Source: Chitinophagaceae bacterium
Lineage (GTDB): Bacteria > Bacteroidota > Bacteroidia > Chitinophagales > Chitinophagaceae
DNA: 32,084 nt
Direction: 5' to 3'
Assembly (NCBI GenBank): GCA_020848815.1
Contig: JADLHL010000009.1
Span: 1 to 32,084 of the forward strand
Shown: piece after piece, positions 483-25,781 of the stretch
Layout of the letters: every line of letters starts with the position of its first letter
How positions within the stretch are numbered: the first letter of the stretch is position 1
Translations under genes and position numbers: made by a program
The notes under the pieces: generated by a model
What the model saw: the letters and a program-made list of their open reading frames with translations, nothing else
The model's database searches: none
Told to the model about the DNA's origin: nothing

Positions 483-1976
483 CTAAGGAACTACTGAAGG
501 TTGATGCTGGTTATTGCCCGTATTTCGAGAAGGAACTTCTGCTTGTAAATTTCGCTGATGCTGCAACCTTCGTTTTTTGTTCATTAGCAGAGGTTTCCAA
601 TCATAGTTTGTTGGAACAAAATTGATGAATGCAAAAGCGAACAACAATGGTGTAATCATGGTACGCATGGCACTATGAAATGTGGAAGCCAACCCCATTA
701 TGAGAAAAAGCAGCATGATAGATTTTCGATAATTATTGGGTTCGTTGTAGGCTTTAAAAAAGGGGTAAAAAAATATCATGATTACCAAAACTAAGCCTGG
801 CAGCCCATGCTCTGCTAAAAGTCTTGAAATTTCAATGTGAGCATTCAAACCTTCGCCCCCCCCATGGTTAACTCTTTCAATTTTGGAATAGCCCACGCCA
901 ACTCCTAGAGCAGGATAAGCTATAAACATCCGAAGATCTGACATCATAATAGAATATCTGCCGGAAGAGATTTGATCAATATCAGCCGATCTGTCAAAGC
1001 CTGTTTGCAGACTACGTTCTGTTTTGCCCTGATAGCGATACAACAAAAAATTATCCGTGTAGGAGTTGATAGCCAAAAAAACAATCGAAATAATCAGAAT
1101 TGCAGCGAATACAGGACCAGCGGAAAATTTGCGCAATACAGTCTCATTATCCTGCCAAGCAGCTCTGGCCTTGGGAAAAAGAATAATGATAAATATCGCC
1201 AAAATTGCTGCAAGCATTCCTCCTCTGCTAAAGGTGAGTAAACCCCTTGTAAGGAAAAGCATTAACATTAAAACATCAATTACTTTATGTTTAAATAGCA
1301 ACTGCCTTGTAATGTAAGCTAATGCCAGTATACCAATGGCTAAGCCAAAAAGTGTAGAAACCTGATTAGTAAAACGTCCACCACCCGAGTCGTAGTTGGC
1401 CGTGAGACCGTAGTCAATTTTTTCAATCTGTGCTGCTTTAAAAAAGGTAAATACTGCAAGCGAGATAATCGGATAAACAATAATGCGTCCCAATTCTTTA
1501 AAGTTCTTAAAAGTCATAATCTGACGAGAACAATAAATAACACCGAGTATAAGTGCCAACAGACCAAAATAATTGTAAACAACAGGCTTATACGAATCGT
1601 AAGGCGCCACAATTAATGCAGGCACTGATAGGATAAGCATGATGACACCATAAATTGAAACCCGTTTTATGGGACCTCCCAAGGCAAGGCCAAAAGCAAA
1701 ACCCACAACCCCTAGGTATTTCCCAATCTGATCGGGTATGAATGGTGTAGCTCCAATAGCTCGGGCCATAACCTCAACAGCCAATGAGTACCCCAACAAG
1801 TAAATCATTAAATGCTCAAGATTTTTTCTGGTGAAAAATTGAACTCCAGCAGAAAAAATAATCAGATAGTACCAAAAAATAAGCGGCCATTTACTATTAA
1901 CAGATAACCCGCCTAATGCAACATGAAAAATGATCCAAAATATTTGCAAACTGTCTTTTCTCAATAATTGTAACAT
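483..1976 (-). CDS. O-antigen ligase / Wzy-type polymerase family membrane protein
   Basis: Many hydrophobic segments; large polar loop followed by GVGVGYSKIERVNHGGGEGLNAHIEISRLLAEHGLPGLVLVIMIFF, typical of the Wzy_C/O-antigen ligase family. Confidence 0.85.
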   Translation of the reverse strand: MLQLLRKDSLQIFWIIFHVALGGLSVNSKWPLIFWYYLIIFSAGVQFFTRKNLEHLMIYLLGYSLAVEVMARAIGATPFIPDQIGKYLGVVGFAFGLALGGPIKRVSIYGVIMLILSVPALIVAPYDSYKPVVYNYFGLLALILGVIYCSRQIMTFKNFKELGRIIVYPIISLAVFTFFKAAQIEKIDYGLTANYDSGGGRFTNQVSTLFGLAIGILALAYITRQLLFKHKVIDVLMLMLFLTRGLLTFSRGGMLAAILAIFIIILFPKARAAWQDNETVLRKFSAGPVFAAILIISIVFLAINSYTDNFLLYRYQGKTERSLQTGFDRSADIDQISSGRYSIMMSDLRMFIAYPALGVGVGYSKIERVNHGGGEGLNAHIEISRLLAEHGLPGLVLVIMIFFYPFFKAYNEPNNYRKSIMLLFLIMGLASTFHSAMRTMITPLLFAFAFINFVPTNYDWKPLLMNKKRRLQHQRNLQAEVPSRNTGNNQHQPSVVP

Positions 1977-3316: not shown

Positions 3317-3318
3317 TA

Positions 3319-4437: not shown

Positions 4438-4452
4438 GTTGTATTGATGAAT

Positions 4453-5607: not shown

Positions 5608-5649
5608 GCTGCTACTGTTTTTTGGGGCATTACCCGCTTCAACAATTGT

Positions 5650-6600: not shown

Positions 6601-6648
6601 GCTGCTTGTTTCTGTTGAGTGTTGTAAAAAAATTTGTTGAGCTGGTTG

Positions 6649-9184: not shown

Positions 9185-9287
9185 GTAAGAAATGGCTACA
9201 AGCCTTTACGGCAAAGTACACACAAAAACAGATTCAAAGATTGAGTGGTTTTTTGCGGCACTACCTATGCAGATTGATGTTATCAAC

Positions 9288-9295
9288 TACATTTG
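9288..9295 (+). promoter_or_regulatory. Bacteroidota-type -7 element TACATTTG upstream of deacetylase gene
   Basis: Exact match to TAnnTTTG; 45 nt upstream of the ATG at 9340; no well-spaced -33 TTG seen. Confidence 0.4.
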
Positions 9296-9339
9296 AATTG
9301 TCAAAGCCAGATTACCCATCTACAACTACTGAACGAAGG

Positions 9340-10251
9340 ATGAAAGTCATCATGTACCATTATGTGCGGCCGCATACAGATTTTGCCAATAACAAATCTG
9401 TGCTTCCGCTTGATGTTTTTTGTTGGCAACTTGATTTCTTTAGTAAAACAGGCAGCATCATTCATCCGGCTGAATTATTTAACCCTGGCTTTCAGCCTGA
9501 GCCCAATCAGTACTTACTCACGTTTGATGATGGATTGATTGATCATTACACATATGTTTTTCCTGAACTGCAGCAACGCGGCTTATCGGGTTTGTTTTTT
9601 TTGAATGGAAAAAACTTTGCAGAACAACGACTATTGAATGTGCATCGGTTGCATTATTTGCTGGCCAACTGTACGGCAAAAGCACTGGAATCGGCCTGTC
9701 TCAATTTGCTGGAGAAATACCCGTTGGTACCAGCATACAAGCAACGGTTTGAAGCAAGTGTGTACGAGGGGTTGCAACAGGAAGAAGTGATTTCAGACAT
9801 AAAAGCCAGGTTGAACTTTTTTGTATCGCCACAAGATCAAGACAGTATTTTGGAGCAGCTTCTGTATCAGTTTGGCATTGATGAAAATGCCATCATGCAA
9901 AACTTCTATATCAACCAAACTCAAGCGGCGGCCATGCAGCAAGCAGGCATGTATTTTGGTGCACATGGCTATTCGCATTATGTAATGAGCAATTTGGCTG
10001 CCCCGGCACAACAGTCAGACATAGATCAGTCCATTCATTTTTTACAACAATGGTTGCCAGAAAATCAACCGCTGAGTTTTTGTTACCCCTACGGCTACCA
10101 CAACTCCTACGACGAATTTTGCACTTCCTATTTACAGCAAAAAACAGCCTGTGCATTTGCAGTAGAAAACCGCTCATTAAACGAAGCTGACTGGAATAAC
10201 AATCGCTGGGCACTGCCCCGTATTGACTGCAATCGTTTTTTACCTGACTAA
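9340..10251 (+). CDS. Polysaccharide deacetylase family protein (NodB-like)
   Basis: MKVIMYHYVRPHTDF...YLLTFDDGLIDHYTYVFPELQQRGLSGLFFLNG...MYFGAHGYSHYVMSNL...SFCYPYGYHNSYDEF. ORF track start is 9241; ATG 9340 fits the family N-terminus and lies downstream of the -7 element. Confidence 0.85.
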   Translation: MKVIMYHYVRPHTDFANNKSVLPLDVFCWQLDFFSKTGSIIHPAELFNPGFQPEPNQYLLTFDDGLIDHYTYVFPELQQRGLSGLFFLNGKNFAEQRLLNVHRLHYLLANCTAKALESACLNLLEKYPLVPAYKQRFEASVYEGLQQEEVISDIKARLNFFVSPQDQDSILEQLLYQFGIDENAIMQNFYINQTQAAAMQQAGMYFGAHGYSHYVMSNLAAPAQQSDIDQSIHFLQQWLPENQPLSFCYPYGYHNSYDEFCTSYLQQKTACAFAVENRSLNEADWNNNRWALPRIDCNRFLPD

Positions 10252-10258
10252 TAACAGC

Positions 10259-11089
10259 ATGCAGGCAAGAATTGCCACTATACAAGATCATGGGCAGTTG
10301 ACAAAATTTTATAGCTGCTACTACCCATCGGGGCATCCATTGTACAATCATGAATTTTGGGCCTGGATGTTTACTAACCCTGCATACGGGCAATGTATAG
10401 TTGTAGAAAATAAAGCAAAGGAAATTGTTGGCCACATGGGTTTTGTACAAGCTGGCGGTTTGGTTTGGTTGGTAAATATTTTAGTTGATGCCAACCATCG
10501 GCATCAAAACATTCCGGATATTTTATTTGATGTAGCAAGGGGGTATGGCCCTCTCGCAGTGGCTGTAGCCAATGATGCAGGCGCATCGCTACTACGCAGA
10601 AAAAAATGGCAGGAACAACAACTACTACAAAGATGGATATGGACTAGGCCAAACACAGACTTTCAAAATAATAAGGATTTTTTTAAGGCCATACAGCAAC
10701 CGGCCGACCTGCAAAAACCAGAAGGCTATTTATGGCAGCAACCATATTTGCAAAGTGTAGCATTTAATTGGGGAGATATTGCACAACTGGCCTTGAATGC
10801 CGGAGGATTGAGATTAGTAACATGCAATAACCCAAAAGCATGTGTAGCATGGGCGATGGACAATAGTTGTAACTGGATTGATTTTGTGACAAGCAATACA
10901 AATGCAGCAATGCAACATGCGTTACAAGATGCAACCTTTTCCCGCAATGAAAATTTCCCCTGGTACCTCAACCCGCCAGAGTTCAACAGAAAAGTAACCC
11001 TCAATTGGTTTACAGAAAATCAATTGCCAGAGGGATTTGTTTTCAACCGTTCAATGGCAGATATGACAAGGATTGGCAGTATTGATTAG
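10259..11089 (+). CDS. GNAT-like acetyltransferase
   Basis: MQARIATIQDHGQLTKFYSCYYPSGHPLYNHEFWAWMF...VVENKAKEIVGHMGFVQ...NILVDANHRHQNIPDILFDVAR; ATG at 10259 lies just after the deacetylase stop. Confidence 0.6.
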   Translation: MQARIATIQDHGQLTKFYSCYYPSGHPLYNHEFWAWMFTNPAYGQCIVVENKAKEIVGHMGFVQAGGLVWLVNILVDANHRHQNIPDILFDVARGYGPLAVAVANDAGASLLRRKKWQEQQLLQRWIWTRPNTDFQNNKDFFKAIQQPADLQKPEGYLWQQPYLQSVAFNWGDIAQLALNAGGLRLVTCNNPKACVAWAMDNSCNWIDFVTSNTNAAMQHALQDATFSRNENFPWYLNPPEFNRKVTLNWFTENQLPEGFVFNRSMADMTRIGSID

Positions 11090-11095
11090 TGGTTT

Positions 11096-12052
11096 CTATT
11101 GCAGCAGTGCTTGCTGTAATTTCTTAGCCATAAATATTTCTGTAGCAGCCATCGATTCAAAAGTAGCGCCTGCAATATGTGGAGTAATCAGCACCCGGTT
11201 GTTGTGTTGAGCAAGTTGCCACAGCGGACTTTTAGTCAAATACCCGTTAAGTTCATCATGAATAACATCTGTAGCCACAGCTGCGATAAGCCCTTGTTCA
11301 ATTAATCCTGCTACCGCTTCTTCATTCCACACATTTCCCCTGGAGGTATTTATTAAAACACTTCCTGGTTTACAATGCTGCAGCAATTCTGCCGATAAAA
11401 AATTATCGTTTCCTGTACCAGGTATGTGAATGCTGATTACATCACTTTGTTGCAACAATTCAAGTAATGGTACTGGCTGAACGGATTCATTGCGAAGCTG
11501 TTCTTCATTGATATCGTAAGCCAACCATCGCATGCCGAATGCTGTTGCAAACCGGGCCACCTGCCTGCCTACTCTACCTAAGCCAATAATACCAATGGTT
11601 TTGCCTTGCAAATTATTGCCTTTCCAATCATTTCTGTTCCACACTCCTTGCAGCACATCTGCAGTAGCTGGAACAAGTCTTTTCATTGATGCCATTAACA
11701 AGGCCCAAGTATGCTCAGCTGTAGATGGAATATTATCGAGAAAATGGGTTTCGCCTTGAAGCGATAAAATCTTGATATTTTTTGTTTCACAATAAGCTAT
11801 ATCAATATGATCGAGGCCTGTGGTAGGGGTAACAATGTATTGCAAATGATGAGCCTGTGCCAAAGAAGCTGCATTCCAAACTTTAGCCAGCCTAACTACA
11901 AGCACGTTAGAAAGGGCTAAAGCATCTTCAAACCCTATTTCAACAGGTGATAAGAATTGTTGCACCTCTCCCAATTGCTTATACAAAGCCAAAGCCTCTG
12001 CGCTGTATTCGCCGGCTTCTGCTATCACTATTTGGGGGTTATGCAACCTCAT
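11096..12052 (-). CDS. D-2-hydroxyacid dehydrogenase (NAD-binding)
   Basis: GKTIGIIGLGRVGRQVARFATAFGMRWLAYD; NTSRGNVWNEEAV; LITPHIAGATFESM. Confidence 0.88.
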   Translation of the reverse strand: MRLHNPQIVIAEAGEYSAEALALYKQLGEVQQFLSPVEIGFEDALALSNVLVVRLAKVWNAASLAQAHHLQYIVTPTTGLDHIDIAYCETKNIKILSLQGETHFLDNIPSTAEHTWALLMASMKRLVPATADVLQGVWNRNDWKGNNLQGKTIGIIGLGRVGRQVARFATAFGMRWLAYDINEEQLRNESVQPVPLLELLQQSDVISIHIPGTGNDNFLSAELLQHCKPGSVLINTSRGNVWNEEAVAGLIEQGLIAAVATDVIHDELNGYLTKSPLWQLAQHNNRVLITPHIAGATFESMAATEIFMAKKLQQALLQ

Positions 12053-12066
12053 ACGTTGTATTTGAT

Positions 12067-13065
12067 TTATGCAATATCATCAGCAGTAAGAAAACTCCAT
12101 TGTGCCAATGCTTTATTGAGCTGCTTCCCCAATACTTGCTGATATTGATTTGCAGGAATCCCTTTATCACCCGGTTTTTTTGATTCCAAATCGCTTAGGG
12201 AAAGTACATGGCCAACCGGCAGATTTTTATTTACCGCCAAAGATTTACCAAACATCACTTTTAATTCTGCAAATTGGCTATTGTCCTCTTTCAAAGCCAG
12301 TGGCTGTAAGCCTTGTTCAATTTTCGCCACGCCTTCGCACAAGAAAGCAATTTCATCAATCGTTAAAGATGCTTTGGCATCGGGGCCAAACATGCGCCTG
12401 TCAAACACGGCATGAAACTCTAATATGCTTGCGCCCAGTGCCGCAGCTGCCAGGCAAGCAACGGGGGTACCACTATGATCGCTAAAACCAACAGGTAGTT
12501 GATAACGGTCACGCATTTGTTGCATGTAGCTGAGCCCCCACTGCGATGGTTGTGTTGGGTAGGCTGTGGTGCATTGCAAAATAGATGTATCAACCTGACG
12601 AGCTTTCAAAAAAGCGATGGCTTCATCCAACTCTTGCCAGTTGCTCATACCACTTGATATAATTACTTTTTTTCCAGTAGCAGCAATTCTGTCCAACAGC
12701 AATAAATTACTGATTTCGCCAGAACCAATTTTATAGGTTTGAATTTTTGTTTTTTCAAGCAAATCCACAGCTGCTATCGAAAATGGACTCGACATAAAAT
12801 CTACACCAGCTTCTGTACAATGAGCAGCGATATCCATCCATTGCACTTCTGTAAATTCCATACGGCGCCAATAATCGAAACGGGTAGCGTCCTGCTTTGA
12901 AAACTTTACCCGAAAAGGTTCATAAGCACTGCTTTCTGCTTCAGCTATATGTGTTTGGAACTTTACCGCATGTACTCCAGCTTTTGCCAGTGCATCTATA
13001 TAACTATGTAAGATGCCCAAACTGCCATCGTGTGCCTGTGCTATTTCTGCAATGATATACGCCAT
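12067..13065 (-). CDS. N-acetylneuraminate synthase family protein (NeuB-like, C-terminal SAF domain)
   Basis: MAYIIAEIAQAHDGSLG...AVKFQTHIAEAESS...SSPFSIAAVDLLEK...KIGSGEISNLLLLDRIA...GFSDHSGTPVACLAAAALGASILEFH...VFDRRMFGPDAKASL. Confidence 0.88.
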   Translation of the reverse strand: MAYIIAEIAQAHDGSLGILHSYIDALAKAGVHAVKFQTHIAEAESSAYEPFRVKFSKQDATRFDYWRRMEFTEVQWMDIAAHCTEAGVDFMSSPFSIAAVDLLEKTKIQTYKIGSGEISNLLLLDRIAATGKKVIISSGMSNWQELDEAIAFLKARQVDTSILQCTTAYPTQPSQWGLSYMQQMRDRYQLPVGFSDHSGTPVACLAAAALGASILEFHAVFDRRMFGPDAKASLTIDEIAFLCEGVAKIEQGLQPLALKEDNSQFAELKVMFGKSLAVNKNLPVGHVLSLSDLESKKPGDKGIPANQYQQVLGKQLNKALAQWSFLTADDIA

Positions 13066-13109: not shown

Positions 13110-14573
13110 TTACTTGAATAATGATGTAGTAGTTCGCTGCTGCATCAGCTTGAGTACACAATTGGCCAATTTTTCCGAAGCAGGATAAATATCATCGGTT
13201 ATAATTTTCTTCCACCGAAGCTTATCCGGAGCCAGTAGATGTGGAGCAGATATAAGCTGTGGCAATAACGAGTTCAAATCATCTTTCTTATGGAGCATAA
13301 CCACGGCGTTTAGTCCATCCCACGTTTTCAAATGCTCCTGCAAATAACCTTGTGTAATATCGAAACCCGGACAATCGGGATGATTGTACGCAAAGTTGAT
13401 TGCTGGTTTATTATGGTGTGCAAAATCGAGGTTCATGGTAGAGCCTATATTGAATAATGCGTCACAATGTAATACCAGATTTACCAACACTGCTTCATCT
13501 TCAGGAGTAGGAATATTCGTTTCCCAGTCTCGGTTGCCCTCCCGTTTCCATAACGGACGAGCAACTATTGCCAAATCTGGAAACCTTTCCACAACAGCTT
13601 CTAATCGCCCGGAATAATCATTGGGTGATGGCCGAACTAATACAACACAATCTTTCGCTTCAGCAAGTTTTGACAGTTGCATTAATACATCCAACAAATA
13701 CAAATGATCGGAAGGAAACGAAGGCTCATTGCCGGAAAAACAAAAGACATGCTTCTTACCCTTGGTACCAAAGCACTCATGAAACCTTTCTTTGGTCCAA
13801 TACAACGCAGTATTATAATAGGCATCGAACTGTGGCGTTCCTGTTACATGAATATTTGCAGTATTGATTTTTGGATACAACAAACAGAATTCATCTTTCA
13901 TCCAATTGCTCCATACCAGCCAATCTTTTGCCTCATAAGTCATACGAGTTTTGGGAAGATTATCCCAAGAAAAAACAACGCTGCACGTATGTATGCCTAA
14001 TGTATTGGCAACACTCATTGCATAGCCGGCTTCAATGGATCGCTGATGGGTACATAACATCATATCTGGCTTCAATTGCTGCAGCAATGAAGCATATGAT
14101 TTTCCGGCATCATCATTCAACATTTTTCTACGTAGCCATGCTTCGGACATGTCACTCATCCATGCAACCTTTGCCAGCAGTCCTGCCAGCATATTCATAA
14201 GTTGAAATAGTATTTTTTTTCTACCCTTTTGTGTACTAAAGAAAAACCAGTTATCAGCTATGCTTTTATTGTTCAGTGTTTTAGCGTTGCGATGCATCCT
14301 GATGAACATACAAAGCCTGCGTAGCAAATCAGCACTTCTGCTTTCTGCAATATCTGGTAAATACACAGTATTAAAAGTATCTGGATGCAACTGTGCCACC
14401 TGTGCGACTACTGAAGGAGCAAGGCGATGTAACAGCACTAACTGAATACCTGCCTGCTGCAAATATTTGAGCACATCTGTAAAAAGATAATTGCGTACAC
14501 CAATCCCATCTGGTACCAACAGTACCAGTGTAGGTTTGCGATTTTCAGTAGTATGATGGTCTGCAACCTGCAT
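13110..14573 (-). CDS. GT-B-fold-like glycosyl-/glycerophospho-transferase of unassigned family (paralog of 18200-19621)
   Basis: LVLLVPDGIGVRNYL...MLCTHQR...FSWDNLPKTRMT...VWSNWMKDE...HVTGTPQFDAY...HCDALFNIGSTMNLDFAHHNKPA, shared with 18200-19621. Confidence 0.5.
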   Translation of the reverse strand: MQVADHHTTENRKPTLVLLVPDGIGVRNYLFTDVLKYLQQAGIQLVLLHRLAPSVVAQVAQLHPDTFNTVYLPDIAESRSADLLRRLCMFIRMHRNAKTLNNKSIADNWFFFSTQKGRKKILFQLMNMLAGLLAKVAWMSDMSEAWLRRKMLNDDAGKSYASLLQQLKPDMMLCTHQRSIEAGYAMSVANTLGIHTCSVVFSWDNLPKTRMTYEAKDWLVWSNWMKDEFCLLYPKINTANIHVTGTPQFDAYYNTALYWTKERFHECFGTKGKKHVFCFSGNEPSFPSDHLYLLDVLMQLSKLAEAKDCVVLVRPSPNDYSGRLEAVVERFPDLAIVARPLWKREGNRDWETNIPTPEDEAVLVNLVLHCDALFNIGSTMNLDFAHHNKPAINFAYNHPDCPGFDITQGYLQEHLKTWDGLNAVVMLHKKDDLNSLLPQLISAPHLLAPDKLRWKKIITDDIYPASEKLANCVLKLMQQRTTTSLFK

Positions 14574-14583
14574 ACAAAAGGCA

Positions 14584-16290
14584 TTACGCTTGCAAAAGCA
14601 TCGCAGCGTTTATCCACTGCCACACAAAAAAGCTATTGTCCGTTTTTTCATCCAGAAAGTCTTGCCAGCCTTTTTCTACCTCTTTTGTATTGAACCAACC
14701 ATTATTTAATGAGCCGGTGAGTGTTCTAATATAATCCTCAGCCCATGATTTTAATGACCCTCGCAACCATTCACGTTGTGGGGTTTGTAAAGGACGTTTT
14801 GGTGCAAGCACCAATTGCTGCTGCATAGAACGCAATGCTAATTGACGCAAACCAAATTTCGTATTGCCATCTCTGTACTTCATGTGTTTGGGCAATGCAA
14901 ATGCATACTCCAACAATCGATGATCAAGAAATGGCTCCCTTAATTCGGTGCTGTACAACATGCTGGCCCTATCGTTAAAACGAAGTGCTCTTGGGAACTT
15001 TGTATAAAAAATATCCCTGTATTGAAGATTTTGCAGGTCGTTATCAAATGGCTTTTTGTATTGAGGGGCTGTTGCCAAACCAGCAAAGTCCGCATCAAGT
15101 GTGGCAGGCAGCACAGGTGCATAATTACTGCCCTGTATTATTCCACCACCGGTTTTATAGTAGTAATCATAGCCACCCCATGCTTCATCCATACCCTGCC
15201 CATCTAGCAGCACCAATACTCCCGCTTGCCTGGCATGCTTAAAGATCTGGCTATATGCAATAGTTGGAATGCCCCCATAAGGTTCATCTTGTTGAATGGC
15301 CATTTCAAGGGCCAAGGCAGGAATATTTTCTGCCTGAAGCAAAACAGGACGCAGCGGCTTACGGGTATGCTCAATGAGTTGTTTTACCCAAGGGAGTTCA
15401 TCATAGCGGTCATCATTGCAATAAAACGTATAGGCATTTATGCTATCATTTTCAGGATAAGCATGATGAATAGCATTGAGCAGGGTACTTGAATCTAGAC
15501 CACCACTGATATTAAAACCAACAGGCACATCAGCTCTGAAACGCAACGCTACTGCATCATTCATTAATGCACTGTAATTGCTTAATATTTCTGTTTCATC
15601 TTGTGCATGTGAAATGTGCTGCACTTCATCTTCCAGTTGATACCATTGATGCAGTTTCGGCTCACTTCCTTTTTCAAACACTGCATAATAACCAGCAGGT
15701 AGGGTGTGTATGTGCTCCCAAAAGGTTTGGTGAGGCTGCCCATACATTCCATGTGTAAAAAAACCTGCCCATACTTCATCATTCGTTTGCTTAGGCACAC
15801 CTGCCGCCCAAAGCGATTTTATTTCGCTGGCAAAAAAATACTGTCCATCCCGCTTTGAGTAATAAAATGGTTTTACACCAAACCTGTCTCTGACCGCAAG
15901 CAATGTTTCTGTAACACTATCCCAAATGGCAAAAGCGAACATGCCAATTAGGAGGGGCAGCATGTCTATGCCTTTTTTTTCGTACAAAGCAAGTAACACT
16001 TCTGTGTCGCTATGTGTTCTAAGTGTTGTATCGGATAGGTATTGCTGCTGTAGCTCTTTGTAGTTATAAATTTCTCCGTTGAATACAATGTGGTATCGGC
16101 CACTGCCACTTTGCATAGGCTGGTTGGCGGCCTCGCTTAAATCAATAATTGACAACCGATTGTGCCCCAAGGCAATGTTTTCTCCAATCCAAATACTGGT
16201 ATTGTCGGGGCCGCGATGGCGCTGTGCATGCAACATTTGATGTAACACATCTTTGTGCCCTTCTCCTATAATGCCTGCAATTCCACACAT
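14584..16290 (-). CDS. asnB: Asparagine synthase (glutamine-hydrolysing) / glycan amidotransferase
   Basis: MCGIAGIIGEG with N-terminal Cys nucleophile; RHRGPDNTSIW; HNRLSIIDLS; FNGEIYNYKEL; PVGFNISGGLDSSTLL. Confidence 0.92.
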   Translation of the reverse strand: MCGIAGIIGEGHKDVLHQMLHAQRHRGPDNTSIWIGENIALGHNRLSIIDLSEAANQPMQSGSGRYHIVFNGEIYNYKELQQQYLSDTTLRTHSDTEVLLALYEKKGIDMLPLLIGMFAFAIWDSVTETLLAVRDRFGVKPFYYSKRDGQYFFASEIKSLWAAGVPKQTNDEVWAGFFTHGMYGQPHQTFWEHIHTLPAGYYAVFEKGSEPKLHQWYQLEDEVQHISHAQDETEILSNYSALMNDAVALRFRADVPVGFNISGGLDSSTLLNAIHHAYPENDSINAYTFYCNDDRYDELPWVKQLIEHTRKPLRPVLLQAENIPALALEMAIQQDEPYGGIPTIAYSQIFKHARQAGVLVLLDGQGMDEAWGGYDYYYKTGGGIIQGSNYAPVLPATLDADFAGLATAPQYKKPFDNDLQNLQYRDIFYTKFPRALRFNDRASMLYSTELREPFLDHRLLEYAFALPKHMKYRDGNTKFGLRQLALRSMQQQLVLAPKRPLQTPQREWLRGSLKSWAEDYIRTLTGSLNNGWFNTKEVEKGWQDFLDEKTDNSFFVWQWINAAMLLQA

Positions 16291-16298
16291 AGCTGTAC

Positions 16299-17015
16299 CT
16301 ATTTATATTCCGGATTAGCTGCCAAAAAAGAATCCAACAACTCGACCGCCATTTGCCAATCTTCAGGCGTATCCACGTTTACCAATACTTCCTGATTGAT
16401 TGGATAGCCCACAAGTTTTGGACCGTAAAAAGTATTTTCTTGTAGCAGTGATGTTTTGAAAATGTAAACAGAACCGTCACGTATGTATGTAACAGGAAGT
16501 AATTGCCGGCGGGTAATAATTTTCTCTTCTCCTGTTGATATGTTTAAGTACCCATCTTGGTTCTGTTCGAATACCCAATGAGGATTGTATTTCTGTGGCA
16601 CTTCGGTAGTTGACACAAGTGTATCAGCATCCAGTTCTGTTAGCTTTTCAAAACAAGCATCAATAAAGCCAACTGATCTAAAAGGATTTGTAGGTTGCAA
16701 AATAGCCACATAGTCAAACACTTTGCCCAATGATGCAAGAAAGGCAATGTCATCCTGCATTACATCTAGCATTGGCGTTGAATCCAAAGCCAAATGAGCA
16801 GGCCGCATTCTTGGCACTTCAATGCCATAGCTTTTAGCAATACTGGCTATTTCGTCGTCATCAGTTGATACAAAACACTCAGTGATACATGCACTTTGCT
16901 GAGCGGCCAAAATTGTATAACCAATCAAGGGTCTTTCTCCCAGCATTTTTTTGTTTTTGCCAGGTACGCCTTTGCTTCCACCTCTTGCGGGTATATATCC
17001 GAGTACACGTTTCAT
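16299..17015 (-). CDS. neuA: Acylneuraminate cytidylyltransferase (CMP-nonulosonate synthetase)
   Basis: MKRVLGYIPARGGSKGVPGKNKKMLGERPLIGYTI; VAILQPTNPFRS; DTPEDW. ORF track extends to a TTG at 17018; ATG at 17015 overlaps the neuC stop (TGATG). Confidence 0.88.
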   Translation of the reverse strand: MKRVLGYIPARGGSKGVPGKNKKMLGERPLIGYTILAAQQSACITECFVSTDDDEIASIAKSYGIEVPRMRPAHLALDSTPMLDVMQDDIAFLASLGKVFDYVAILQPTNPFRSVGFIDACFEKLTELDADTLVSTTEVPQKYNPHWVFEQNQDGYLNISTGEEKIITRRQLLPVTYIRDGSVYIFKTSLLQENTFYGPKLVGYPINQEVLVNVDTPEDWQMAVELLDSFLAANPEYK

Positions 17016-18172
17016 CAATACATGATGGTTTTATGAAATCGCAAATCAATGGCAGCTAATATATCTGCGATTTTTTTTCCTGCATCGCCACCTCCATACA
17101 CGTTTGATGGAGCAGGCCTTTCGCTTTTCAGCAGTTGCTGAATAGCAGCGGCAATACTCGCTGTATCGTAGTTGGTGTCAATTACATTATTGCCCCGGTC
17201 TCTTCTGTTTTGTCGACTGCCCAAATTGATAACAGGTACACCCAAATAGGCACATTCCCGAATACCCACACTACTATTTCCTATCAGCATTTTGGCATTG
17301 AGCAGCAGCTTCAGAAAATCTTCAGACTCCATGTTCTTGAAGAAATGAATATTAGCCGGCTTGTGTACTTCTCTGTAATGACGAATACCACTTGAAGTGC
17401 CATCAGCACCTGCATCTACATTTGGCCAAAACCAAAAAACAGGCAAATCGAGCTTCGCAACAGCGGCCAGGGTTTCCATTACATGATGCCGGCTTTCCTG
17501 ATATTCTGTGGTAACAGGGTGTTGCATCACCACCAGATATCCGTTGCTATAATCTGGCGTGGCACCCACCCCACCGTATTTTTCATACACTTTAAAATCA
17601 AGTGAAGGATTAGCCTTTACATTGGCAGCCAAATCGATTGATGGACAACCTGTGTTGAATACATACTCAGGATCTTCTCCCAATTTTATAACCCGCTCCT
17701 TAGCTGACTCACTGGCTACAAAATGAATGTCGGCCAGTTTGGTATTGGCATGTCTTACTTTTTCATCGATATTGCCAGTTACCTCACCACCTTGCACATG
17801 GGCCAGTGGAATATTTTGGTAAGAAGCCGCAATGCTGATAGCGATGGTTTCAAAACGATCTGCGATGGCAATAACGACATCAGGCTTTAAGTTGTAAAAA
17901 ACATTGGCCAATTCCATGATACCAAGGCCGGTGGTTTTTGCCATGGCAGTTGGGTTTTCGCCTTCCAGTACCATGAATACTTTTTCATTTACCTCAAACC
18001 CATCTTTCTCTATAAATTCCAATGCATTGCCATAACGGCCTAGCAAGGCACTACCTGCCACCACCAGTTGCAGTTGCAAATCGGGATGCTCCTGAATGGC
18101 TTTCAATGCGGTTTTAATTCTGCTATAGGAAGGACGAGCAGTTATTACTACGCAAACTTTTCTCTTACTCAT
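17015..18172 (-). CDS. neuC: UDP-N-acetylglucosamine 2-epimerase (hydrolysing), NeuC/LegG-like
   Basis: KVCVVITARPSYSRIKTALKAI; VIAIADRFETIAISIAASYQNIPLAHVQGGEVTGNIDEKVRHANTKLADIHFVAS; NSSVGIRECAYLGVPVINLGSRQNRRDRG. Confidence 0.9.
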   Translation of the reverse strand: MSKRKVCVVITARPSYSRIKTALKAIQEHPDLQLQLVVAGSALLGRYGNALEFIEKDGFEVNEKVFMVLEGENPTAMAKTTGLGIMELANVFYNLKPDVVIAIADRFETIAISIAASYQNIPLAHVQGGEVTGNIDEKVRHANTKLADIHFVASESAKERVIKLGEDPEYVFNTGCPSIDLAANVKANPSLDFKVYEKYGGVGATPDYSNGYLVVMQHPVTTEYQESRHHVMETLAAVAKLDLPVFWFWPNVDAGADGTSSGIRHYREVHKPANIHFFKNMESEDFLKLLLNAKMLIGNSSVGIRECAYLGVPVINLGSRQNRRDRGNNVIDTNYDTASIAAAIQQLLKSERPAPSNVYGGGDAGKKIADILAAIDLRFHKTIMY

Positions 18173-18199
18173 GATGCTATTGTGCTTACGTTCTCAGAA

Positions 18200-19621
18200 T
18201 CATTCATGTTTATGTGCCAGTTGTAACAACAGGTTCGAAATGTTTTCAGATGCATTGGGTATATCATCGGTTAGTTTTCGTTTCCATTCGTTGCGTTGTG
18301 TGGCCACAGCTCCCGGGGTGTTAAGTCCGGCTTGTATCACCTGCACAATATCGGACTTTGATTTTATCCAAAGTACAGCATCCAAGCCATCGAGGGTCCG
18401 GAAATGTTCTAGCCCGTAAATAAACTCGATATCATACCAATCAGCATTGTAAGGCTTGGGATAATTGATGTAGACAGCCGGCTTGTTGAAGTGGGCAAAA
18501 TCGAGCCCCATGGTGCTGCCAATGTTTACAACCAAATCGCAATGCAGGCAAAGATTGGTAAGTAGTGCTACATCTGAATAACTTGGCAGAATTTCAAACC
18601 ATCCTTTATCAGCACTACCTTTCGTCCATAAAGGATCAATACATGTAACAAAGTCCTTATATCTATCTGCGAATCCATCAAACCTGCCGGAAGCATCAAC
18701 TGGTGCTCGACGTAAAATTAAATGAGGTCTTTTAGCCTCAGGCATTTCTTGTATAGCCTCGGCAATATCTTCGAAATAATATTGGTCGTTAGGGCTGCTC
18801 ATATCATTGCCACTCAGTAATACCCACTGCTTTTCTGCTGGCAAACTCCATTCATTAGCAAATGACACTCTTTCTTGATACAACGATGTTTTAGTATAAC
18901 ACTCAAACTGCGGAGTTCCTGTAATAATTACTTTTTCTTGCGGTATTTCTGGATAGTACCATGCCATTTCTTGCTTCATGTAGCTACTCCATACAATGTA
19001 CGCATCAGCACGAAGTGTAATTCTACTCTTAGGCAAATTATCCCAAGAAAAAATAGCTGTGACAACAGGAATGTGCAGTTGATTTGCAGCCAAAGCCATA
19101 ATTGCTGCTGAAGGAACCCGCTGGTGAGTACAGAGTATGACGTCAGGCTTTGTCTGCTGCAGCAATTGTTTGTAAACTTTGGCAGCCTTTGATTTTCCGT
19201 AACTGTTGTCGAGCAAAGTGTCTATGCCCTTTATTGTTTTTATATTGTACGAACAAATCCTGGCAGCAAGAATTACTAATTGATAATAGCACCATTCAAA
19301 TCCTGTTGGATTTTTTACCAGTAAGAGACTTTTCCAGATTCTATGATTTTTTCTTACACGGCTATTCCGCATCAGTCTTGAAAAAGCAGCAATTTCGCGG
19401 AGTATTCTTTGCCATTTCGATTCGCTAAACTTGGGCAACCTGTGCTCATGGAGATTTACCCCATGTAACTGTTCTACGGTTTCTAATACAAAAGCCGGCA
19501 AATTATGCAGCATGCCGATTTGTGCAGGCTGTAAATACTTAATCAAATCCGAATACAAATAATTTCGCACCCCGATCCCATCGGGAACAAATAGAAATAC
19601 ATTTTTATAATTCAAAGTCAT
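18200..19621 (-). CDS. GT-B-fold-like glycosyl-/glycerophospho-transferase of unassigned family (paralog of 13110-14573)
   Basis: VFLFVPDGIGVRNYLYSDLIKYL...ILCTHQR...FSWDNLPKSRIT...VWSSYMKQE...ITGTPQFECY...HCDLVVNIGSTMGLDFAHFNKPA. Confidence 0.5.
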   Translation of the reverse strand: MTLNYKNVFLFVPDGIGVRNYLYSDLIKYLQPAQIGMLHNLPAFVLETVEQLHGVNLHEHRLPKFSESKWQRILREIAAFSRLMRNSRVRKNHRIWKSLLLVKNPTGFEWCYYQLVILAARICSYNIKTIKGIDTLLDNSYGKSKAAKVYKQLLQQTKPDVILCTHQRVPSAAIMALAANQLHIPVVTAIFSWDNLPKSRITLRADAYIVWSSYMKQEMAWYYPEIPQEKVIITGTPQFECYTKTSLYQERVSFANEWSLPAEKQWVLLSGNDMSSPNDQYYFEDIAEAIQEMPEAKRPHLILRRAPVDASGRFDGFADRYKDFVTCIDPLWTKGSADKGWFEILPSYSDVALLTNLCLHCDLVVNIGSTMGLDFAHFNKPAVYINYPKPYNADWYDIEFIYGLEHFRTLDGLDAVLWIKSKSDIVQVIQAGLNTPGAVATQRNEWKRKLTDDIPNASENISNLLLQLAHKHE

Positions 19622-19657: not shown

Positions 19658-20797
19658 TCAGCCATTATCCAGCAGCATTGAAATATTGAAGCTTGATTCT
19701 ACCTGCTTAAAAACAAGTTCAAACTCATGTGACCATGTTTCGAAATCTAAAAAATCAATCTTAGGAGCAGTTATCTGCCATGAAGGCAGTTGGTGTAGTG
19801 CCCGGTCAAACGCTTTCATCCACTCATTTACTTCATTAGGATAATGTATGGCAATACCATGGACTCCATCTTTAAAAAACTCTTTAACACCTCCAGCTTG
19901 TGATGCAATCATAAAACATCCGCAGCACATCATCTCCATTAAGCTCAGCGGAAATCCTTCTAGCACAAGTGAAGAAAATATTCCTATATCTGCTGCTTGA
20001 AGATAAGCCGGCACTTCATTGTTATTTATCAGGCCAACAAAATCTACACTAGAGATGGTATTGGGACCGGTTACACCTATTACATGCAGCACAACATCTT
20101 GACTGCTGCGTGATGACATCCATGTTACCCATGCATTTAGCACTATATCGAAGCCTTTTTTGGGCCGGTTGTGGCTCAGCCATACAAAATGCTTTTTTTC
20201 GGCAGCCCAACCTAATCTTTTTTTCAAACTAGCCTTTTCTAAAGCACTTGGTGCTTTGAACAATTGTTTATTTATCGGATTGTGAAGTACCGATATACTA
20301 AATGGCAAAGCAAAACTGTGTGCTAAATGGTACTCATATGCAACACGAGTAAGAAAGACAAAATGGTGAATACCGTGAATAAACTTTTCCCAAATAGGCT
20401 TTGTAAAGAAATAAGAATAACCATGAAAATAAAACATCATTCGAACCCTGCTCGTAAGTTCCTTCCTTTGAAGATGAAGCTCGATTTCATTTTTCACACG
20501 GGTAGAATCTACAATACAAAGAATGAGATAATCATACTCATTAAGCAAATCATCGATTGCTCTATAATAATGCCTGTATCTGTATTGAATTTTCAATTTA
20601 TTCAACACCCTGTTTGGCTGTTGCTTACAGTAATATACTTTATGGTGTGTAGTTAATGCATCTTCAGATGGCGGGCATATAACAGCATCAATATGACAAA
20701 TATTATCTTCTAACAACCTGGTTATTAGCTTAGGCCAGCTGGCAGTGTTTTTACCAGGCACTGGTGTGTCAGTTACAATTACTCTGGCAATTTTCAT
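19658..20797 (-). CDS. Glycosyltransferase family 4 (GT-B)
   Basis: FVWLSHNRPKKGFDIVLNAWVTW; SSLVLEGFPLSLMEMMCCGCFMIASQAGGVKEFFKDGVHGIAI. Confidence 0.85.
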   Translation of the reverse strand: MKIARVIVTDTPVPGKNTASWPKLITRLLEDNICHIDAVICPPSEDALTTHHKVYYCKQQPNRVLNKLKIQYRYRHYYRAIDDLLNEYDYLILCIVDSTRVKNEIELHLQRKELTSRVRMMFYFHGYSYFFTKPIWEKFIHGIHHFVFLTRVAYEYHLAHSFALPFSISVLHNPINKQLFKAPSALEKASLKKRLGWAAEKKHFVWLSHNRPKKGFDIVLNAWVTWMSSRSSQDVVLHVIGVTGPNTISSVDFVGLINNNEVPAYLQAADIGIFSSLVLEGFPLSLMEMMCCGCFMIASQAGGVKEFFKDGVHGIAIHYPNEVNEWMKAFDRALHQLPSWQITAPKIDFLDFETWSHEFELVFKQVESSFNISMLLDNG

Positions 20798-22323
20798 GTG
20801 GTCAAATTATGATGAATTTTTTTTCCAATGGTTGCTATTACCGGCACGCCTGAATCGGAGAGAACAACTGAAAGCTTTTGTAGCAACTGAATGCTAAGTT
20901 TTCGATTGCACAGCCAAAACATTACAAACTGAATAACATACAATACCATTGCGACCAGGACAAGCGACAAAATCGTATCAACGGTCAGAACATACCTAAT
21001 ACCCAATGCTACCAGCAGCAGGCAGATAAAAATGAGTATCAATCGGCTGTTTTTTTTAATAAAATAAGCCGGATTAATATTCAGAAAATATAACCCGGAA
21101 AAAACCTTCAGGTTTTCTCCAATGATGTTTAGAAGTACTATAGCCACAGCAAAAACAAAAATACCGCCTCCGTACAAACCAATTGCAGACAATACAATAA
21201 TCGTTAGCAACAGTTGGATGTAAGTAACTATAGACCCGATTTTCAATTTACCGACAGCCAAGTGAATGCCTAAGCCGGGAGAGTAACAAATTCTGATCAG
21301 CGTGTAGGCACAATACAACGACATGATAGAGACGGCCGGTTGCCATTGCGCATCGAACAATAAGGTGATAATTGGCGCTGCAAATACGGTACCTAAAATC
21401 AAAGGGATGCCAAGTATTAAATAACCAGATGCTGCCATTAAATGAATAGCATTTAGGATCCGATCTGGATGTTCCTTGTGATTGCTATAGTAGGAAAAAA
21501 GTAATTGCGATTGAGAAGAAAACATGGCGGAATGCAATTCCAGCGAATAGGAGGAAGCAAATTTGATTAAGCCTATATCACTTATTGCATTGAATGTTTT
21601 GAGCAACCAGTTACTGGATTGTGCATGCAGGTATTGACCCACACCCATAAACCACGAGTGCTTTGCATACCACCAAATTTCACGCTTCACTTCATCAGAT
21701 AATTTGGTGAATCTTGGGGTAAACGTGCCATATTTATACAACAACCCATTGTACACAAAAGTGCCCAACACAAGTCCTGCAGCCCACCCCAAAATGCCGT
21801 AACCCGCGAAAACCAAAAACACACGTGCCACAGCAGATATGAGGTTTGAAAAGAAACGAGCCCATGTAATCGCTCCGAATTCCATGCGCTTCTTCATCCG
21901 TACTTCATTGATTTTGCCAGCTATCGTAGCGATATAATTCAATGCAAGTATGCGCAAATAGCTATCAACAGGTGCATCAAATAAAATACCATTTAACGCA
22001 TGCGACGCCAAGACCTGTAGTGCAAATAAAACTACATTGGAAATGAGCCTGAGCTTAAAAATAGCTTGTTCAATTTCGTCGACTTTGCCAGACTGAAAAG
22101 CTGCATTATCATTTAGGTCTACCTTGAAGATGTAATAGTTTTCAAATCCGATATCCAGAAGTATGTCGAACAAGCCAGTGATGATACCCACAATGAGCAG
22201 GAGGCCAAAACCTTTGGGGCCAATGGTTGAAGTAACTGCCAATAAGGCCAAAAGGTTGATAACCCGCCCTGCAACAGTGCCCATAAGCACATGATAAGTG
22301 GCTTTAGCAACCTTTTGTGACAT
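20794..22323 (-). CDS. Oligosaccharide flippase (Wzx/MATE-like polysaccharide transporter)
   Basis: Multi-pass hydrophobic protein; MGTVAGRVINLLALLAVTSTIGPKGFGLLLIVGIITGLFDILLDIGFENYYI typical of flippase N-termini; 4-nt overlap (ATGA) with the next gene. Confidence 0.85.
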   Translation of the reverse strand: MSQKVAKATYHVLMGTVAGRVINLLALLAVTSTIGPKGFGLLLIVGIITGLFDILLDIGFENYYIFKVDLNDNAAFQSGKVDEIEQAIFKLRLISNVVLFALQVLASHALNGILFDAPVDSYLRILALNYIATIAGKINEVRMKKRMEFGAITWARFFSNLISAVARVFLVFAGYGILGWAAGLVLGTFVYNGLLYKYGTFTPRFTKLSDEVKREIWWYAKHSWFMGVGQYLHAQSSNWLLKTFNAISDIGLIKFASSYSLELHSAMFSSQSQLLFSYYSNHKEHPDRILNAIHLMAASGYLILGIPLILGTVFAAPIITLLFDAQWQPAVSIMSLYCAYTLIRICYSPGLGIHLAVGKLKIGSIVTYIQLLLTIIVLSAIGLYGGGIFVFAVAIVLLNIIGENLKVFSGLYFLNINPAYFIKKNSRLILIFICLLLVALGIRYVLTVDTILSLVLVAMVLYVIQFVMFWLCNRKLSIQLLQKLSVVLSDSGVPVIATIGKKIHHNLTT

Positions 22324-22487: not shown

Positions 22488-24935
22488 TTAAATACCAAGA
22501 ATACTAAGCACCCGCTTGAAGAAACCAGGTTTTTTCTCTTCGTCCATATAATAGCCTGATTTGTTTTTAGCATTCCCGTAATAACCATAACCATAGCCAT
22601 AGCCGTAGCCATACCCATAGCCATAGCCATACCCGTAGTTTTCGCCAGCTCCTGTTTTAATACCGTTTACAACAATTCCCAAGTTCTTGAACTTCTGTTC
22701 CTCATAAATTTTTTGTATGAAAGTAAGTGTTGATCTAAATGTGTATTTATGACGAACGATGAAAAAAGTAAAATCAGCAAACTTATCCAACAGTAATGCA
22801 TCAGTAACGAGACCAACAGGAGAAGTATCCATAATAATGAAATCATACTTGGTACCTAAAAGAGCCATCAGCTCCTCCATTTTTTTACTCAGGATCAATT
22901 CGGAAGGGCTTGGCGGTGTTGGTCCCGAAGGGAGTAGGTCGAAATTGCTATAACCAGGCACTTTTTGAATTGCGTCAAAAATATTGGGTTCACTACCAAT
23001 GAGGTAATTACTCAAACCTACTTTATTACTAATGCCCAAGTATCGGCTTACCCGTGGTTTACGCAAATCGAGTTCTATCAATAAAACACGTTCTTTTACC
23101 AATGATACGGCTGCAGCTAGGTTGATAGAAAAGAAAGATTTACCCTCACCACTCATAAAAGACGTTGCAGTAACGCATTTTATAGGCGTATCCAATGCAA
23201 CGTACTTCAGGTTAGTTCTAACCAATCTGAATTGCTCAGAAATTGCTGACCTGCTTTGTGGGGTTACAACCAACGGCTCATCAGACTGCTTGTATATAAT
23301 TTCACCAATGATTGGTGTACTCGTTGCCGCCTCAATTTCAGCCCTATCTCCAATAGTATTATTGAAAAGCTCAAATATGATTAGCAAGATTGTTGGAAAG
23401 AGAAAACCGATAAGTATGGATAGTAAAAAAATCTGTGATCGAACAGGTTTTACCTGACCCTGATTCATGGCTGGATCAAGCACCCTTGCATCACTTGTAT
23501 TGGAGGCTACTGAAAGCTCGGCTTCCTCACGTTTCTGCAAAAGGAAAGTGGCAATTTCATCTTTAATTTTTGCTTCTTTTTCCAATCCAAAAAGCTGCAT
23601 CTCAACTATAGGCAATTTTGCTACTTCAGCATCAGTTTTTTGCAGCGATTGTTGAACTGCTTGAAGTCTGACTTTTTGTGCATTAATTAAATTCTGAAGG
23701 TTTGTCAGCAACGCCATACGAGAGGTAACTACTGCGGCATTTGCAGATTTCACTTCTGGGTCATCTTCTGTACCAATTTCAAGTTTGGCGCTTCGGTCAA
23801 ATATTAGTTGGTTGTGAGATGCGATGAGTTGATTCAGTGAAGTCTCCTGAATACCTACGGAAGAAGGTATAATCTCATAAATATTTTTACCGTTAGATAC
23901 ATAATTGTAAATGCCGTTCATTAGTTCCAACTCTGTACGCAATCCTATTTCGGACTCCAAAAGCCTAGTTGATTGACCTAGCAATTGTTGAACTTTATCG
24001 TTTCCGTCCCCCCCAATATTATTCTGAGACCTGTATTGAGCAACTTTACTATTTGCCCCCCCCAATTCACCACTAATTGCTGATAGCCTTTCATTTAAAA
24101 ACTTAATAGAGTTTATCCCTTGTGTATTTTTGTCATCTACACCGGCTTGAACGTATTTAGCTACTAATACGTTAAGAATATCTTCTGCCCTCTCTGGAAT
24201 TATATCCTTCAACGCAAGCTCAAGCACTCCTCCAAATTCTCTTGTTTGATTTACTTCAACTGCATTCCTGAGACCATCGGCATAAGACTGACGTTCTAAA
24301 ATGGCAATATAGACTGTGCTGTTAGGGTTTTCTTGAAAAGATGGATTTCGCCTCAGAGATAAGTAGTGACCTTCAAAAAGCACGGTATCTCCATATTTTA
24401 TAGCTGTATTTTTTCCAGTGGAAGCAGTTATAACGAAACTATCTCTACCTAATTGCACAGGTGCATCTCCAAAAAATACATTTCCTTCTGTATGATTTCC
24501 TGGTTTAAAATAGTCGATTATAAATGGACTTTTTTTACCATACAGAGTGAGCTTACGTATTCTGCCTTCTATAAAAAATTGCAAATCAAGATTTAAAGAA
24601 TCTACTACACGATTCATAAGGGTGTACGACTGTAACACATCCTTTTCGTTTTCAATGCTTCTATCGCCGGATTGTAGGCTGAGCGTATTTAATATTTTTT
24701 GTTCTTCGGTACCTACACGATGATCTCTTATGAGCACCAAAGAATTTGCACGAAAAACAGGTGCCGAAAACTCCAAATAAACCTTTGCAAGCAGCAGACT
24801 GACAATAATTGAGATTACATACCAAGGAAGTATAGAAACTGCCTTGGCTGCAAGTTTTAGAACATCAAATTTTGATGATTCACCAATACCTATATCAATC
24901 TTAGGTTGAGTATTATTGAATTGGGGGGCCGACAT
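22488..24935 (-). CDS. Polysaccharide biosynthesis tyrosine autokinase (Wzz + BY-kinase, Wzc-like)
   Basis: N-terminal Wzz-like TM region; Walker A TATSFMSGEGKSFFSINLAA; Walker A' LLIELDLRKPRVSRYL; DFIIMDTSPVGLVTDALLL; Tyr-rich C-terminus. Confidence 0.92.
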   Translation of the reverse strand: MSAPQFNNTQPKIDIGIGESSKFDVLKLAAKAVSILPWYVISIIVSLLLAKVYLEFSAPVFRANSLVLIRDHRVGTEEQKILNTLSLQSGDRSIENEKDVLQSYTLMNRVVDSLNLDLQFFIEGRIRKLTLYGKKSPFIIDYFKPGNHTEGNVFFGDAPVQLGRDSFVITASTGKNTAIKYGDTVLFEGHYLSLRRNPSFQENPNSTVYIAILERQSYADGLRNAVEVNQTREFGGVLELALKDIIPERAEDILNVLVAKYVQAGVDDKNTQGINSIKFLNERLSAISGELGGANSKVAQYRSQNNIGGDGNDKVQQLLGQSTRLLESEIGLRTELELMNGIYNYVSNGKNIYEIIPSSVGIQETSLNQLIASHNQLIFDRSAKLEIGTEDDPEVKSANAAVVTSRMALLTNLQNLINAQKVRLQAVQQSLQKTDAEVAKLPIVEMQLFGLEKEAKIKDEIATFLLQKREEAELSVASNTSDARVLDPAMNQGQVKPVRSQIFLLSILIGFLFPTILLIIFELFNNTIGDRAEIEAATSTPIIGEIIYKQSDEPLVVTPQSRSAISEQFRLVRTNLKYVALDTPIKCVTATSFMSGEGKSFFSINLAAAVSLVKERVLLIELDLRKPRVSRYLGISNKVGLSNYLIGSEPNIFDAIQKVPGYSNFDLLPSGPTPPSPSELILSKKMEELMALLGTKYDFIIMDTSPVGLVTDALLLDKFADFTFFIVRHKYTFRSTLTFIQKIYEEQKFKNLGIVVNGIKTGAGENYGYGYGYGYGYGYGYGYGYYGNAKNKSGYYMDEEKKPGFFKRVLSILGI
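22576..22637 (-). repeat. Imperfect 6-bp coding tandem repeat encoding consecutive Tyr-Gly dipeptides
   Basis: Reverse strand tacgggtatggctatggctatgggtatggctacggctatggctatggttatggttattacggg = (YG)9-YYG, with synonymous variation. Confidence 0.9.
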
Positions 24936-24968: not shown

Positions 24969-25781
24969 TTACTTAAAAAGCGTAATGAACAATGTAGACA
25001 ATGCAAGTATGATAGTTGCTATAGGTGCATAAGTCTGACCGAAGTTTCGAATCGTTCTAGTAGGTAGCGTTGGTATATATATTACATCATCTGGCTGAGG
25101 ATAGAAGAATTCTGATGCCAAAAAACCAGTATCGCGAAGATTCATATTTGCCAATATCCTTTTGCCCTCAGGAGATTCTCTATAAACTTTGACTTTAGAT
25201 AAATCTCCATATTCTGTTACGAATCCGACTTGCGCTAAAGTTTCAAACAAATTAGCTCGTTCTTTAGCAAATGCAATGGTAGAGGGGCTTTTGACCTCGC
25301 CCAAAATAGTAACTCCTCTTTTGGGTAAATCAACCAAAACAAAAGGGTTTTGCATCATTGGGGTAATCAACTCCATAAGTTTAAGTCGCAGCTGTTCTTT
25401 TGTTAAGCCTTCAGCCTTTACTTTTCCCAAAACAGGAAAATTAATATTGCCCTCAATATCAACTTGTAAACCTGTTTGCTCTGGCCCTTCAGACCCCTTA
25501 ACTCTTGTTTCTAAATCACCGCCCGCCCCTCCATTTAACTGACTGGCCACATTGGGATTTTTACCTGCAAACTTTACTCTGACAATATCATATTTACGTA
25601 TCGTAGGCTCCTGATATTTAAATGGATACTCAGCTAATTCAATGGTTTTAGTGGTATCAAGATATGCGCCCATCATATTGAGTTGGGGCCCTTTACAACT
25701 GGTCATAAATGACAATGACAACACGATTATGCCAAGCAATAACGTAAGTGTGGAAATGGAACAGTGTTTAATTTTCGTCAT
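24969..25781 (-). CDS. Polysaccharide export outer-membrane lipoprotein (Wza-like)
   Basis: Lipoprotein signal LSLSFMTSCKG; IRKYDIVRVKFAGKNP; VDIEGNINFPVLGKVKAEGLTKEQL; PFVLVDLPKRGVTILGEVKSPS. Confidence 0.9.
   Translation of the reverse strand: MTKIKHCSISTLTLLLGIIVLSLSFMTSCKGPQLNMMGAYLDTTKTIELAEYPFKYQEPTIRKYDIVRVKFAGKNPNVASQLNGGAGGDLETRVKGSEGPEQTGLQVDIEGNINFPVLGKVKAEGLTKEQLRLKLMELITPMMQNPFVLVDLPKRGVTILGEVKSPSTIAFAKERANLFETLAQVGFVTEYGDLSKVKVYRESPEGKRILANMNLRDTGFLASEFFYPQPDDVIYIPTLPTRTIRNFGQTYAPIATIILALSTLFITLFK

Follow-up and report, generated by a model that had tools for sequence, protein, structure and literature searches.

The window examined here is one whole 32-kb contig (32,084 nucleotides) of a Chitinophagaceae bacterium genome. 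Its minus strand carries an operon that begins with a Wza-like export protein (24969..25781) and a Wzc-like chain-length/export protein (22488..24935; GNVR, AAA_31), followed by a MOP/Wzx-type flippase (20794..22323) and a GT4-type glycosyltransferase (19658..20797). Next come GTx-2 (P0002; 18200..19621, 473 residues); NeuC, a hydrolysing UDP-GlcNAc 2-epimerase (17015..18172; TIGR03568, 394 bits against a cut-off of 236); a NeuA-like CMP-nonulosonate synthetase (16299..17018); an AsnB-type glutamine amidotransferase (14584..16290; TIGR01536, above cut-off); GTx-1 (P0001; 13110..14573, 487 residues), a putative CMP-nonulosonate transferase and the paralog of GTx-2; the nonulosonate synthase NeuB (12067..13065); and a D-2-hydroxyacid dehydrogenase (11096..12052), an enzyme that recurs in the nonulosonate (NulO) cassettes carrying GTx. 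From the flippase through the dehydrogenase the intergenic gaps are merely −4 to +44 bp, so these genes almost certainly form a single operon.

The NeuA-like gene matches PF02348; its best NCBIfam model is PseF, below cut-off, and its start is likely the ATG one codon past a TTG. NeuB scores 223.6 bits with PF03102 and 289 bits with NeuB_NnaB (cut-off, 399.65). AsnB probably amidates a sugar in the window's repeat unit. After the operon lie a convergent plus-strand pair, a polysaccharide deacetylase (9241..10251; PF01522) and a GNAT-like acyltransferase (10223..11089), then more GT4 genes, a UDP-sugar dehydrogenase, and, on the minus strand, a Wzy-type gene (Wzy_C-type polymerase/ligase, 483..1976). 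By profile annotation, every glycosyltransferase in the window other than GTx-1 and GTx-2 is of the GT4 type.

The first-pass annotation had given the coordinates of the two GTx ORFs, naming no strand. Those coordinates hold: both ORFs are uninterrupted throughout on the minus strand, and the plus strand there is stop-rich. It had also placed AsnB, NeuA, and NeuC between them with NeuB just beyond, the order found in the operon, and each motif that it quoted as common to the pair is present in both proteins. The two are intact paralogs, with similarity far above chance (BLASTP: 317 bits, 38% identity, 55% positives, and 4 gap positions over 466 residues), and they are the only GTx copies in the genome. 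A quick tree groups them in a clade specific to the genus (SH-aLRT 97), which divides into a GTx-1 group and a GTx-2 group (supports 99 and 100); the pair thus appears to have arisen by duplication inside this genus, perhaps to serve two acceptors or linkages. Most GTx relatives have one copy per locus. The presence of both copies around the CMP-sugar genes had been read as a hint that they transfer the CMP-activated sugar, perhaps in two linkages; the linkage to CMP-nonulosonate genes extends across the family (see below), but paired copies are confined to the genus.

Sister genomes with named records are Chitinophagaceae MAGs and isolates. GTx-1 and GTx-2 share an operon in G000, G004, and G008, with synteny preserved in G004 and G008; G005 carries a pair of GTx genes along with two sets of NulO genes. 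Relative to G008, dN/dS is about 0.09 for GTx-1 and about 0.10 for GTx-2, at high synonymous divergence, so both copies are under purifying selection. (G008 is assembled as a single contig, and frameshifts within L023:11064-12499 and L023:14179-16630 break up its GTx-2 ortholog and its Wzc; these are probably assembly errors, not genuine pseudogenes.) Duplication raises the prospect of a functional split, in which one paralog keeps NulO transfer and the other uses a different donor or a NulO acceptor. Such a split would agree with the reading that we favour for the family and would differ from it for one window copy alone. It draws on the genus-specific duplication, on the divergence of the two copies to just 38% identity, and on the single-copy state of most relatives; set against it are the complete set of invariant residues in both proteins, the purifying selection on each, and their retention in one operon in the three genomes. 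We consider it unlikely, though not to be dismissed lightly.

How widespread are these proteins? A scan of GTDB genomes with a 9-row alignment recovered at least 528 relatives in one pass, and the best 80 of these come from Bacteroidota, one Sulfurovum excepted. (That exception, L058, is a Campylobacterota MAG with a complete NeuB-NeuC-NeuA-AsnB-GTx cassette, through either horizontal transfer or a misbinned contig.) Relatives were not found in viral contigs. P0001 has no Pfam matches at E values up to 1. P0002 barely matches PF13439 (29.1 bits, cut-off 28.5) over 85 residues, with the GT4 C-domain PF00534 absent, and over a similar stretch it matches MGDG_synth (27.4 bits, cut-off 25). Scores with NF046086, 26.9 bits for P0001 and 33.7 bits for P0002, fall under the curated cut-off of 200, as does that of P0002 with TIGR04396, a surface carbohydrate biosynthesis protein family (13.8 bits, cut-off 125). 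By these measures, both proteins lie outside any meaningful Pfam or NCBIfam family.

A deeper alignment of 17 GTx rows, reaching down to 18% identity, brings remote relatives into view. Weak matches occur to NF046086 (15/17 members), TIGR04396 (13/17; best 5.5e-9), and PF04464 (7/17; best E 8.6e-9), and none of the 17 members matches the GT38, GT52, and GT80 profiles PF07388, PF07922, and PF11477 at E up to 1. Comparison by hhalign of the 17-row alignment with NF046086 gives 98.8% with three NF046086 rows and 99.3% with ten, over 280 columns, against 0.5% for GT4 and 65% for NeuC/epimerase controls; these probabilities are from single-pair comparisons, not database searches. GTx and NF046086 are thus homologous over the C-terminal two thirds; their N-terminal domains do not align. 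The nearest relatives of GTx are NF046086 and TIGR04396, with the CDP-glycerol transferases of PF04464 more remote, and by these matches the superfamily adjoins families with cytidine-nucleotide donors. Neither single proteins nor profiles gave significant matches in PDB sequence searches, the best for NF046086 being KpsC (E 1.2). The earlier remark that no familiar family is recognisable therefore stands insofar as no catalogued family claims GTx, but NF046086, TIGR04396, and PF04464 are true, if remote, relatives.

The GT-B fold suggested in the first-pass annotation is borne out by modelling. The AlphaFold2 model of GTx-2 (pLDDT 91, pTM 0.90) confidently predicts a GT-B fold, and its top Foldseek matches are two-domain GT-B proteins throughout, including TagF (E 2e-7) and UDP-GlcNAc 2-epimerases. 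(The model of an NF046086 member, pLDDT 60, is too low in confidence for a fold comparison.) Each of these matches invites a different reading. TagF uses a cytidine-nucleotide donor, and TagF/TarF proteins have in common with GTx both the GT-B fold and an 'SS/ST...D' loop. GTx might be a CDP-glycerol or CDP-polyol phosphotransferase, as the Foldseek match and the PF04464 hits in 7 of the 17 members would suggest. Yet the window proteins themselves give no match to PF04464 at E up to 1, a CDP-glycerol cytidylyltransferase was not found among the annotated window genes, and the CTP-using partner gene is invariably a CMP-NulO synthetase; this makes a phosphotransferase of the TagF/TarF type very improbable. 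The resemblance to 2-epimerases, along with the close coupling of GTx to NeuA and NeuC, could instead mark GTx as a modifier of NulO or CMP-NulO rather than a transferase. The two-domain GT-B architecture, the nearest sequence relatives (which are glycosyltransferase families), and the far weaker match to the epimerase profile (65%) leave that idea with hardly any credence.

One line of evidence for function is the company that GTx keeps. Among 101 related genomes, strong NeuB matches occur in 12 of 13 GTx carriers and in 25 of 88 others (Fisher p 1.5e-5, relatedness ignored); the sole carrier without NeuB is a MAG of 67% completeness, in which the contig breaks off within GTx-1. Among 248 Bacteroidota drawn evenly across the phylum, the counts are 26/26 carriers versus 135/222 non-carriers (Fisher p 1.1e-5, again ignoring relatedness). 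At 80 named GTx loci, NeuB lies within 10 kb in 57, at a median of about 2.0 kb. At 30 of these loci NeuA or NeuC immediately precedes GTx (gap −47 to +62 bp); at a further 19, that position is taken by AsnB, GNAT, or the dehydrogenase. For the 21 loci that lack a local NeuB, together with four relatives, all 25 genomes encode NeuB, mostly on the same contig and 11–31 kb away. The neighbourhood survey therefore finds the family together with CMP-nonulosonate genes, and frequent occurrence in genomes free of NulO genes, which would sit ill with the first-pass hypothesis of CMP-sugar transfer, was not seen (NeuB in 26/26, 25/25, and 12/13 carriers). The GTx family occurs essentially only where activated sialic-acid-like sugars are made.

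Algoriphagus loci were considered as a disproof of this link and rejected, every such genome having NeuB. GTx also forms part of a conserved GTx-GT4-GT4-Wzy block, and in Algoriphagus more than 10 kb separates this block from the NulO genes.

A second line of evidence is the variety of partner pathways. Three different CMP-NulO cassettes are found immediately ahead of GTx: Neu5Ac-type A, Neu5Ac-type B, and KDN (type C). Type A loci, the window included, have a divergent NeuB. Type B loci have near-canonical Neu5Ac genes, with NeuB at 391–396 bits (cut-off 399.65) and NeuC above its cut-off. The KDN type pairs a NeuB-like synthase with a fusion of CMP-synthetase and KDN-9-phosphate phosphatase (NF058599), and is found directly upstream of GTx in Marinilabiliaceae (L039, L061, L064, L072, and L087); an unfused form with a separate phosphatase gene occurs in the same family (L025:11292-15182). 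The partner pathway thus varies, and the predicted product class, CMP-NulO, is constant. A pair of Flavobacterium loci illustrates the point. L101 and L105 are 86–88% identical in DNA over GTx and its flanks, and their GTx proteins are 89% identical, but their NulO genes (about 3000–7655) encode proteins of merely 30–32% identity. This difference indicates that the NulO cassette was swapped for a distant one while GTx was retained.

The possibility that GTx subclades track NulO type was also considered and rejected: type labels cluster on the tree yet switch 24 times, so donor type does not map simply onto GTx sequence.

Two accessory features of the cassettes deserve mention. A deacetylase and GNAT pair adjoins the NulO genes, just upstream of GTx, in L046, L097, L098, and L110, which suggests that the N-acyl group of the nonulosonic acid is removed and replaced. 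A D-2-hydroxyacid dehydrogenase, which may be the source of a hydroxyacyl group, is present in the NulO cassettes of L023, L027, L032, L040, L048, L069, L080, L102, and L105, often without AsnB.

Alignment of 90 core members and a divergent set of eight outlines a candidate active site (numbering as in P0002). All 90 core proteins have S192, W193, D194, N195, R304, P307, N366, S369, and D374; H406 is present in 89, and T370 in 88, with Ser in the other two. The 17-row alignment keeps S192, D194, N195, R304, N366, S369, T370, and H406. GTx-1 and GTx-2 each retain the entire invariant set, the candidate catalytic residues of GTx-1 being D204, R314, S378-T379, and H414 (equivalent to D194, R304, S369-T370, and H406). 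The family thus conserves a catalytic-looking set of residues, to which we would assign individual roles only provisionally. For the GT38 polysialyltransferase, the catalytic set comprises the base E153, the HP-motif histidine H291, the phosphate-holding pair S339-T340, and H382 (PMC5517516). In GTx the acid, the Ser-Thr pair, and a later His follow in matching linear order (PMC5517516). At the place of the D/E-D/E-G motif, GTx has the invariant S-W-D-N, with D194 in a topologically similar loop after strand 186–189. The GT38, GT80, and GT52 sialyltransferases (MhPST, PmST1) likewise have a GT-B fold and an acid in the loop after an N-domain strand. They do not match GTx in sequence, but their Ser-Ser/Thr pair is also found in GTx, where a role in phosphate binding would be plausible.

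The HP motif sets core GTx apart. Its histidine is typical of characterised bacterial sialyltransferases and β-Kdo transferases, yet none of the 90 core proteins has it: position 306 is C, V, S, A, or T, ahead of the invariant P307. The motif is present in seven of the eight divergent cousins. This absence, with SWDN in place of D/E-D/E-G, counts against NulO transfer, as does the GTx-GT4-GT4-Wzy block, which can sit far from the NulO genes and so could serve another sugar. The main alternative is accordingly that GTx moves some other common sugar of a unit that always contains NulO, for example the residue before or after it; constancy of that block even at loci that hold their NulO genes at some other place, and of GTx itself while NulO cassettes are exchanged, would both fit. 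But the Neu5Ac-type and KDN pathways have the CMP-NulO product alone in common, and the remaining glycosyltransferases of the window are of the GT4 type, a class in which we know of no NulO transferase. Nor do other sialyltransferases offer themselves: in 37 carriers, GT38 passes its cut-off in one, and GT52, GT42, and GT80 in none (the controls for these last three were silent, so their absence is weak). On balance we regard transfer of another sugar as rather improbable.

On the reading that we favour and think likely, the two GTx proteins work in the cytoplasm as CMP-NulO transferases, belong to an uncatalogued GT-B family, and act on a lipid-linked repeat unit, with the donor being the inferred element. 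It rests on the family-wide linkage, the varied CMP-NulO partners, the cassette swap, the GT-B model, the profile link to NF046086 (whose own genes lie near NeuB), and the residue set, and also on the GT4 type of all other window glycosyltransferases and on dN/dS of about 0.1. The following pathway is proposed, in which the steps of NeuC, NeuB, and NeuA rest on established family functions. NeuC would convert UDP-GlcNAc to ManNAc, NeuB would form a Neu5Ac-type acid, and NeuA would activate it to CMP-NulO; the acid may be amidated by AsnB, or its acyl group exchanged by the deacetylase and GNAT. GTx-1 and GTx-2 would then add this Neu5Ac-type NulO, possibly amidated or re-acylated, to the lipid-linked unit, for export by the flippase, Wzy, Wzc, and Wza as a Wzx/Wzy/Wzc-type surface polysaccharide. 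Catalysis would be inverting: D194 in the SWDN loop would serve as the base, S369-T370 together with R304 would hold the CMP phosphate, and H406 would assist. More tentatively, and with rather less confidence than even chances would warrant, one may suppose that the family lost the HP histidine, that Arg304, the Ser-Thr pair, and His406 stabilise the CMP leaving group, that both Neu5Ac-type and KDN donors are used, and that the genus-specific duplication provides two NulO linkages.

Genes for NulO synthesis occur widely in environmental Bacteroidota, and most of the matching transferases are unassigned. No curated model names the GTx family, despite its 528 or more loci. If the proposal is correct, it fills a gap in how Flavobacteriaceae, Cyclobacteriaceae, Marinilabiliaceae, and Chitinophagaceae build sialic-acid-like surface polysaccharides, provides new enzymes for making sialosides and KDN-glycosides, and reveals a sialyltransferase-like active site that dispenses with the HP histidine. 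Minimal cassettes of NeuB, a NeuA::KDN-9-phosphatase fusion, and GTx make the question of the donor directly testable.

NulO transfer by a Bacteroidota glycosyltransferase is already known (GtfS, PMC6388019); neither Pfam nor NCBIfam has a family for GTx. In Tannerella forsythia, GtfS (Tanf_01245) and TFUB4_00887 were identified as pseudaminic and legionaminic acid transferases by knock-out and mass spectrometry, and the NulO glycan locus, like that of GTx, also contains an AsnB gene (PMC6388019, PMC6120980). These enzymes are reported to carry a DXD as well as D/E-D/E-G and HP motifs; GTx departs from the HP motif. NF046086 resembles GTx in its profile and in the nearness of its members to NeuB, but it keeps invariant E-G, HP, and TxxLE residues, whereas GTx carries SWDN and lacks the HP histidine. 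It is the BFO_1060 family of glycosyltransferases, named after a T. forsythia locus tag. In all eight genomes with NF046086 genes above cut-off (L133–L142), these genes lie 1–15 kb from NeuB, and in L140 one of them is flanked by two divergent GTx genes. Divergent GTx cousins, most of which keep the HP motif intact, are found in L029–L034; several sit in O-antigen loci of the ABC-transporter type, together with an AsnB-like gene and an extra unassigned conserved gene.
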